Origin: Armatimonas rosea
GTDB lineage: Bacteria; Armatimonadota; Armatimonadia; Armatimonadales; Armatimonadaceae
NCBI RefSeq assembly: GCF_014202505.1
Contig: NZ_JACHGW010000001.1
Coordinates: 434,001-498,000, forward strand
Direction of reading: 5' to 3'
DNA: 64,000 bases
A program made the position numbers and the translations under genes. The notes beneath the pieces were generated by a model. It searched no databases and was not told the origin of the DNA. It worked only from the letters and a program-made list of their open reading frames with translations. Below are positions 5,577 to 57,338 of this stretch, in pieces (positions within the stretch are counted from its first letter, which is position 1; every line of letters begins with the position of its first letter).

Positions 5577-5640
5577 TTTTGACCTCCCCCCGCCGCTGAG
5601 ACGGCGACCCCCTCCGGCAAGCGAAGGGCGGTGGAGATGG
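5577..5640 (-). repeat. Palindromic repeat element, family A
   Basis: On the minus strand this reads CCCTTCGC, TTGCCGGAGGGGGT, GC-rich spacer, GGGGGGAGG. The same order of blocks occurs at 56900-56971 inside a gene and partly at 6965-7030 and 8092-8135. It fills the leader region of the downstream GuaB3-like gene. Confidence 0.6.
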
Positions 5641-6825: not shown

Positions 6826-7050
6826 CGCCATCTCCCCGCGCCCGCTTCGCGGCCATCTCCCCGCGCCTTAGAGCGCTTCCCCTCTTCCCCTTTTTGTTCG
6901 CAAGCTCACGGGAAGAGGGGCTTTTCTTTTTTATCCCGTGCCTCTTCCTGTCACCTAGGCTCTTGCCCCTCTTCCTGCGAGGAACGAGCAAACCAGGGAA
7001 GAGGGGGGGCACGAGGAACGAGGGCGGGGGAGATGGCCCCGCGGAGATGG
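6826..7050. repeat. Nested palindromic intergenic region
   Basis: The 287-base gap between the GuaB3 and aldo/keto reductase genes holds no gene but several inverted repeats: a terminator-like hairpin at 6879-6920, a second one with arms CCCCTCTTCC (6966-6975) and GGAAGAGGGG (6997-7006), and outer copies of CCATCTCCCCGCG facing GGGGGAGATGGCC. The word CGAGGAACGAG occurs twice (around 6979 and 7013). This is the family A sequence seen also at 8092-8135 and 56900-56971. Confidence 0.6.
6879..6932 (+). terminator. Rho-independent terminator of the GuaB3-like gene
   Basis: Perfect 11-bp stem CCCCTCTTCCC (6879-6889) / GGGAAGAGGGG (6910-6920), followed by CTTTTCTTTTTT. A convincing terminator for the rightward gene ending at 6814. 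Confidence 0.7.
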
Positions 7051-8091: not shown

Positions 8092-8180
8092 ACTCCCCCC
8101 GGCTTCGTTCGTTCCTCACTACGCCGACCCCCTCTCGCTCTGTTTCCGACTTCGTCGGGACGAGAGGGGGTTATGTTTTT
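8092..8180. terminator. Repeat-derived terminator between convergent genes
   Basis: Stem CCCCCTCTCG (8128-8137) / CGAGAGGGGG (8161-8170), followed by TTATGTTTTT on the plus strand. The left flank (8092-8120), read on the minus strand, contains GAGGAACGAACGAAGCCGG, a variant of repeat family A. It separates the aldo/keto reductase from the leftward gene ending at 8171. Confidence 0.55.
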
Positions 8181-54839: not shown

Positions 54840-55817
54840 ATGACCCCGCTCCCTCTCACGCCCTACCCGGAGCTCCCCGCCGAGCGAACGCGCTGGATCC
54901 TGGAGCGCCGCGGCCCCAAAAAGACCCACGACCCCACGCGGCCCTACGGCTGCTTTGTCGAGGAGGAGCCCGGCCCCGATGGGACGCTCTGGGAGTGCCA
55001 CACGCTGCTGCTGACCAACCGGGAGTGCGCCTTCCGCTGCTTGATGTGTGACCTCTGGCAGGACACGCTCGACACGCCCACCGCACCTGGTGCTATCGCC
55101 GCCCAGCTCGCGAGCCTCCAGCCCCCTAGCCCCCGCCGGGTACCCTCTGGGTGTGGGGAATCTAGGCGGTATGCGCTGAAGCTCTACAACGCGGGGAGCT
55201 TCTTCGACCCAGGACAAGTGCCGGTCGAGGACTACGCGGCTATCGCGGCTGCGGCCAAGCCGTTCGACCGGGTGATTGTGGAGAGCCACACGGCGTTTCT
55301 GCGGGGCGCCCACGCCGCGCGGGTGCTGGCCTTTCAAGCCGCGATCGCACCCGCAACGCTTGAGGTGGCGATTGGGCTAGAGACGGTCCACCCGCAGGCT
55401 CTCGAAAAACTCAATAAGCGCATGACGGTCGAGGAGTTCCAGGCCGCGGCGGCGTTTCTGGCGGAGAATGCAATCGCGCTTCGGGTGTTTCTGCTGGTGC
55501 GCCCGCCGTTTCTGAGCGAGGAAGAGGGCGTCGCGTGGGGCTGCCGCTCCCTAGACACTGCGGCGGCGTGCGGCGCGACCTTTGCGGCGCTGCTCCCCGT
55601 GCGGGCGGGCAATGGCGCCCTGGAGGCGCTGGCCGCACAGGGCCACTACGCTCCCCCAAACCTGGTCAGTGTTGAGACCTGCCTGCGCTACGGCCAGAGC
55701 CTGAGCACGACGATGCGGGTCACCGCCGATCTCTGGGATATCGAGCCCTTTGTCCGCACCGCTGCCGACCGGGCCTGTGTGGAGCGCATCCGAGCCCTCA
55801 ACCGCAACGGAACCTAG
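54840..55817 (+). CDS. Radical SAM protein (COG1244-like)
   Basis: A 325-residue enzyme with the iron-sulphur motif Cys63-x3-Cys67-x2-Cys70 (CAFRCLMC), followed by KLYNAGSFFDP and VESHTAF, features of the COG1244/ELP3-related group of predicted Fe-S oxidoreductases. The reaction is unknown. At about 95-111 a Pro/Arg/Ser/Gly stretch (PSPRRVPSGCGESRR) is encoded by a GC-palindromic segment (55125-55166) and looks like an insertion before the conserved KLYNAGS block. Its stop overlaps the convergent GNAT gene by 4 bases. Confidence 0.85.
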   Translation: MTPLPLTPYPELPAERTRWILERRGPKKTHDPTRPYGCFVEEEPGPDGTLWECHTLLLTNRECAFRCLMCDLWQDTLDTPTAPGAIAAQLASLQPPSPRRVPSGCGESRRYALKLYNAGSFFDPGQVPVEDYAAIAAAAKPFDRVIVESHTAFLRGAHAARVLAFQAAIAPATLEVAIGLETVHPQALEKLNKRMTVEEFQAAAAFLAENAIALRVFLLVRPPFLSEEEGVAWGCRSLDTAAACGATFAALLPVRAGNGALEALAAQGHYAPPNLVSVETCLRYGQSLSTTMRVTADLWDIEPFVRTAADRACVERIRALNRNGT

Positions 55818-56384: not shown

Positions 56385-57338
56385 ATGGATGAAAACAAGT
56401 TTATGGGCTGTTTATTAGGAGCCGCGGTCGGGGATGCGATCGGGCTACCCGTCGAGGGCCTCGCCCCCGAGCGGGCGCAGCGGCTCTTTGGCCCGCTCAC
56501 GCAGCACCGGCTTTTCTTGGGGCGTGGCTTTGTCAGCGACGATACCGCGCACGCTCTCATGACCGCCCAGGCGCTGGTTGCCTCGGGAGGCGAGCCCGAG
56601 CGCTTTGGCCGGGAGCTGGCGTGCCGTCTACGGCTCTGGTTTCTGAGCCTGCCGCCCGGCGTGGGCCTCGCCACGGCGCGTGCCTGCCTGAAGCTGCTGG
56701 TGGGCTTCTCCTACAAAAACGCCGGCGTCTTCTCCGCAGGCAACGGCCCGGCGATGCGCGCCCCGATTATCGGGCTGTTCTGCGCCGCCGATCCCGACGA
56801 CACCCGCCTGCGTGCCCTCGTGCGTGTCTCCACCCGCCTCACCCACACCGACCCCCAGGCCGAAGAAGGCGCCCTCGCCATTGCCAGAGCAACCACTTCC
56901 TCCCCCTTCGCAGCGAGGAACGAGCGATTGCCGGAGGGGGTAGCGAGCTGTGCGAGCTGGGGGAGGCCGGTCTCTGGCTACATCGTCCACACCGTTGCAG
57001 CCGCGCTCGCGCTCACCGCACGCCACCCCGACAATCTTCGCGACGCTGTGATCGAGACAGTGGCCTTGGGCGGCGACACCGACACCGTGGCCGCGATTGT
57101 GGGCGGGCTGGTCGGGGCATGGGTGGGCCGCGACGGCATCCCCACCGACTGGCTCGCCGGCTTGATCGAGCCGTGGTGGAGCGAGCAGCGCATCGCGAAG
57201 CTCGCCCGCCAGTGCGCCGAGGTCGCCGCCAGCCGCACCCCCCAGCGCCCCGACCGGAATTTCTGGCTGGCGACCCACACCCTCCTCTGGCCCATCGTCC
57301 TCTTCCACGGCTTCCGGCGGCTCTTTCCTCCCTACTAG
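56385..57338 (+). CDS. ADP-ribosylglycohydrolase family protein carrying an in-frame repeat
   Basis: A 317-residue all-helical hydrolase of the ARH/DraG family. Metal-binding signatures are FVSDDTAHA near the N-terminus and GGDTDTVAAIVGG near the C-terminus, and the N-terminus MGCLLGAAVGDAIG is typical. Between EEGALAIARAT and SGYIVHTVAAALAL the family normally has a longer helical segment; here it is replaced by about 24 residues (SSPFAARNERL...) that are the translation of a family A palindromic repeat (56900-56971). Activity is therefore uncertain. Confidence 0.82.
   Translation: MDENKFMGCLLGAAVGDAIGLPVEGLAPERAQRLFGPLTQHRLFLGRGFVSDDTAHALMTAQALVASGGEPERFGRELACRLRLWFLSLPPGVGLATARACLKLLVGFSYKNAGVFSAGNGPAMRAPIIGLFCAADPDDTRLRALVRVSTRLTHTDPQAEEGALAIARATTSSPFAARNERLPEGVASCASWGRPVSGYIVHTVAAALALTARHPDNLRDAVIETVALGGDTDTVAAIVGGLVGAWVGRDGIPTDWLAGLIEPWWSEQRIAKLARQCAEVAASRTPQRPDRNFWLATHTLLWPIVLFHGFRRLFPPY
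56900..56971 (+). repeat. Palindromic repeat element, family A, inside a coding sequence
   Basis: Blocks CCTCCCCCTTCGC, GCGAGGAACGAGCGA, TTGCCGGAGGGGGT and CTGGGGGAGG are the same and in the same order as the intergenic copies (5577-5640 on the minus strand; partial at 6965-7030 and 8092-8135). Here it is read through in frame, without a stop codon. Confidence 0.65.

Follow-up and report, generated by a model that had tools for sequence, protein, structure and literature searches.

A hairpin-forming repeat family carried in frame by conserved genes of Armatimonas rosea

Palindromic repeats lying in frame within genes are known from Rickettsia, from Wolbachia, and from other bacteria, where they occur as intragenic REPs with uvrA as one of the targets, and in the published cases orthologues tend to bear the insert at the same place (PMC2229807, PMC3767692, PMC10969869, PMC3733652). 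RPEs measure about 100–150 bp and form a long stem-loop (PMC2229807, PMC3767692). Intragenic REPs carrying a GTAG/CGTC tag, for example in uvrA of Opitutus terrae, consist of short hairpins, often in opposite pairs, and encode 20–30 aa in frame (PMC3733652). Read-through frames have also been noted for the bacterial MITEs ERIC, YPAL, and Correia (PMC2229807). In-frame palindromic repeats in genes are thus already described, and what is new in the present work is the family; our literature search found no description of such repeats in Armatimonadota.

The repeat considered here lies in a gene for an ADP-ribosylglycohydrolase of A. rosea, within a stretch of 64,000 nucleotides that was analyzed as a whole and is referred to as the window (Table 1). 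It resembles the Rickettsia and Wolbachia palindromic elements in that palindromic repeats occur in frame in many unrelated genes and are tolerated in exposed regions, but it is set apart from the RPE by description, being 68 bp in length (~67 bp in the family), forming two short hairpins, and residing in a bacterium that has a high GC content and belongs to a different phylum. Like the intragenic REPs, it too sits in frame in uvrA and RNA helicase genes; unlike the tagged REPs, it was not found flanking the RAYT genes that are present, and neither GTAG nor CGTC tags its ends (GTAG 5 and 5, CGTC 5 and 1, of 142 copies). An origin of the repeat from the RAYT flanks is not supported, as a few hundred bases around the 7 RAYT genes, inspected by eye, hold other palindromes. 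Several of these seven RAYT-like genes (PF01797; L091–L097) have a common upstream stretch like ATCAGATTTGG ... CCGTTATAGGGGC. With the ERIC, YPAL, and Correia MITEs the repeat shares the character of a small, non-autonomous repeat able to fuse in frame to genes. A target-site duplication was not detected: with repeat ends that are inexactly defined, sequences next to the copies shared 23 4-mers versus 23.6 expected, and no excess of shared 4- to 6-mers was seen. Among the marks of the general kind, protein-coding palindromic repeats, are many hairpin-forming copies and in-frame copies in conserved genes, both found here, and translation of the segment, which is presumed below. Judged from these sequence features, the present repeat appears to be a member of the general in-frame genic palindrome kind that would work like an RPE; we claim no membership of the RPE or REP families.

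Table 1. Positions of the host gene, the repeat copies, and the hairpins in the window. R1, covariance model of the repeat.
Feature	Position	Strand	Evidence
ADP-ribosylglycohydrolase gene, 317 aa, repeat host	56385..57338	+	PF03747, E 3.8e-54
68-bp repeat, sense orientation, encoding residues ~172-194 (SSPFAARNERLPEGVASCASWGR)	56899..56966	+	42 BLAST matches in own genome
Hairpin 1, arms 56904-56910 / 56932-56938 (CCCTTCG / CGGAGGG)	56904..56938	+	98.9% of cells paired, 25 copies
Hairpin 2, arms 56941-56944 / 56956-56959	56941..56959	+	92.9% of cells paired
Intergenic short-form copy	5583..5632	-	R1 45.4 bits, E 8.7e-8; training copy, score not independent
Intergenic copy, CTTCC-type variant	6965..7033	+	R1 40.3 bits, E 1e-6
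Weak intergenic copy adjoining 6965-7033, opposite orientation	6856..6921	-	R1 24.6 bits, E 0.002
Doubtful copy named by the sequence-only reading	8092..8172	-	R1 16.8 bits, E 0.08

The covariance model R1, built from 25 copies, detected 142 copies (E 0.01 or better) at 115 loci of the 6.3-Mb genome; this is a lower bound, as scoring covered only 150 of the 7281 first-look candidates. Both the 56899–56966 copy (88.2 bits) and the one at 5583–5632 belong to the training set, so that their scores are not independent and the BLAST search of the genome serves as independent support: the matches to 56899–56966 include the query itself, and the nearest other one shares 96% identity across 73 bp (E 9e-28). 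In addition, when up to 3 mismatches were allowed, the pattern CTTCGCAGCGAGGAACGAGCG gave 41 genome matches versus 1 for the reversed control pattern. The sequence-only reading had taken the segment in the gene for a repeat on the strength of a few shared blocks, and the count bears this out, the repeat being anything but absent elsewhere in the genome. The blocks it had placed at 5577–5640 (minus strand) and 6965–7030 correspond to the copies at 5583–5632 (E 9e-8) and 6965–7033, whereas the recurrence it had placed at 8092–8135 yielded only a weak and doubtful match. Two stretches of the genome (L019 and L021) are almost identical, with the repeat nested within a larger palindromic repeat. 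Elsewhere in the window, 54840–55817 encodes a bacterial protein whose match to RaSEA, the archaeosine radical SAM protein, stays below the cut-off (TIGR01210, 90.7 bits versus 212).

The family, ~67 bp in length, has two covarying short hairpins. Across the 25 copies, two pairs of hairpin 1 show changes on both sides, one pair of hairpin 2 is seen as C-G, G-C, A-U, and G-U, and compensatory changes in the two hairpins amount to 19 double-change cells versus 4.9 in shuffles. A single long palindrome was rejected as the conserved structure, with 82.7% of cells paired versus 96.7% for the two hairpins; the segment was rightly called palindromic insofar as it is a hairpin repeat, but not in the sense of one long palindrome. 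The difference between the long and short forms of the repeat is the loop of hairpin 1. Folding of the single strand was not exceptional relative to shuffles (z -0.9 and -0.6).

To classify the 115 loci, codon usage was trained on the 64-kb window and on stretches around repeat matches. At 39 loci the repeat is in frame, has no stop, and is bordered on either side by coding signal; the others comprise 5 on the same strand but in another frame, 1 with stops, 5 with opposite strands, and 65 with one flank lacking clear coding signal. The 39 in-frame loci contrast with 6 same-strand breaks, whereas random insertion expects one third in frame (p 2e-13); the expectation is that of a simple model, and ordinary gene boundaries may account for the 6 breaks. 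For repeats scoring 45 bits or more, 24 are in frame versus 4 breaks (p 2e-8). Genes are underrepresented among the repeat loci, but only mildly: 34% of the loci lie in genes, compared with 49.6% of random window positions under the same classing. Genic copies occupy unrelated hosts in both orientations, with several reading frames in use, and the residues P, G, S, R, and E abound in the peptides they encode. Pfam assigns the hosts to PrmC, Sua5/TsaC, UvrA, DeaD helicase, DsbD, ABC-F, serine dehydratase, and MFS and FtsX permeases, and further to 2-oxoacid dehydrogenase E2, PKS, NRPS, FAD oxidoreductase, and several DUF1553 proteins; in serine dehydratase, DeaD, and FAD oxidoreductase, the copy either is among the lower-scoring ones or has a variant form. 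PrmC and Sua5/TsaC are each the sole such gene in the genome and each carries the repeat, so the repeat-bearing products must presumably work. In PrmC the repeat falls between profile positions 84 and 90 of a match that scores 262.7 bits overall. The PrmC stretch (L217, 1501–1637) holds two repeat copies in opposite orientation, with tandem CCTCCCCCGGCCGCTCTA units before them. The likeness in kind to the Rickettsia palindromic elements, initially proposed for one gene, hence extends beyond it to 39 of 115 loci.

At the ADP-ribosylglycohydrolase site the repeat is stop-free and keeps the frame of the 317-aa ORF, as had been read from the letters. Purifying selection acts on both flanks of the repeat, dN/dS versus the genus-mate G001 being 0.18 before and 0.155 after it. 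The AF2 model of the protein has a pLDDT of 88.3 overall and falls below 50 at residues 183–192 only, within the repeat. Between the flanking helices there are 28 residues here and 22 in G001, compared with 56–64 in 15 outgroup orthologues, and in the outgroup structure model this segment is well ordered, with helices 169–199 and 204–210. The shorter length indicates that a segment was lost and that the repeat now occupies its position: according to these models, a disordered loop would have replaced an ancestral helical segment of 56–64 aa rather than added residues. The sequence-only reading was therefore correct in assigning a helical segment to the homologues, but not in viewing the repeat as inserted and adding about 24 residues; none of the outgroup orthologues in the alignment has the same residues. 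The G001 orthologue carries a short, degenerate form of the repeat at the same site (21.6 bits, E 0.005). An origin of the repeat at this site common to both species is likely, to judge from this match, yet not proven because the G001 copy is short and degenerate. A second ADP-ribosylglycohydrolase match in G001 (C182, 20016–20454) is fragmentary, with an internal stop.

Further orthologous sites in G001 were retrieved with one query of joined flanks from 14 genes, then aligned and judged by eye. Five sites (serine dehydratase, FAD oxidoreductase, DeaD, ABC-F, and MFS) are without a repeat there, and others hold different repeat forms. In the DsbD linker the repeat is in sense orientation in A. 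rosea (L029) and reversed in G001 (L134; 41 bits), with nearly equal flanks. At the FtsX-permease and DUF1553 sites (L139, L137), G001 has a repeat of its own, CCCTCCTCCC...GGGAGGAGGG, where the present repeat sits in A. rosea; this pattern has 103 matches per strand in G001 versus 5 in the A. rosea genome, nested matches counted. The swapped forms may reflect insertions that arose independently at permissive places, or an in-place exchange of the repeat. We are doubtful that the intraprotein sites are common to both species with the repeat itself swapped in place; if true, protein linkers would be rewritten genome-wide, in each species separately, by a process that homogenises palindromes through template switching or gene conversion. 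As to wider distribution, a 20-mer of the long form, scanned over ~85,000 genomes that may leave out A. rosea's own, matched only the Armatimonadetes MAG LacPavin_0818_WC50_MAG_59_12, taken as G001, and one Blastococcus contig. The full consensus had no match in ten genomes from other genera of the same family, and G017, of another family in the same order, has many matches to its 3' half. Judged from the 20-mer, the long form appears nearly confined to the genus.

We consider it highly probable that the family is a non-autonomous REP/RPE-like repeat that is translated where it landed and tolerated in loops and linkers. A hairpin-forming repeat of ~67 bp would have multiplied within this genus of Armatimonadota without encoding the means to do so. 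Most of its reading frames contain no stops, and a copy landing in a compatible frame and a permissive place, such as a surface loop or domain linker, would be transcribed and translated into a disordered peptide rich in Pro, Gly, Ser, Arg, and Glu, with the host protein still working. Selection would purge the copies that break frame or fold, so that those in frame and in loops remain. The copy that took the lost helix's place in the ADP-ribosylglycohydrolase would, in some form, probably predate the split between the genus's two known species. Translation of the genic repeats is presumed here, with frame preservation as indirect support, and the repeat may likewise be mobile and neutral.

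Alternatively, the hairpins may be kept for a host function (mRNA stability, attenuation, or DNA folding), the genic copies then being selected, not tolerated. The covariation of the copies, the many intergenic ones, and the species-specific families at the same sites would be in line with this notion. Yet unrelated genes host the repeat in both orientations and several frames, several genus-mate orthologues lack it, and replication or recombination that copies palindromes would likewise yield covariation, which makes a host function improbable in our view. Coding sequence can also be excluded from the protein, as exemplified by T4 gene 60 and the mitochondrial byps, and the two covarying hairpins retained even in coding copies might be removed from the mRNA by splicing or bypassed during translation, such that the repeat is absent from the protein. 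A skipped element, however, would be under no need to stay in frame and free of stops, yet 39 loci are both, versus 6 on the same strand that are not, and several different reading frames are in use; we give exclusion very little credence. A chance likeness of GC-rich loop codons to intergenic hairpins, despite the GC-richness of the region and a whole strand that folds no better than shuffles, is next to impossible, being already refuted by the BLAST match to a second, 96% identical copy over 73 bp and opposed by the 41 pattern matches versus 1 for the control.

A translated and tolerated REP/RPE-like repeat in A. rosea would extend in-frame genic palindromes from Rickettsia, Wolbachia, and some REP-rich bacteria to a free-living bacterium of the Armatimonadota, and on a large scale in a 6.3-Mb genome. 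Conserved enzymes, among them the single-copy PrmC and Sua5, would offer dozens of insertion experiments made by nature, and the species pair allows repeat turnover to be studied at fixed protein sites.
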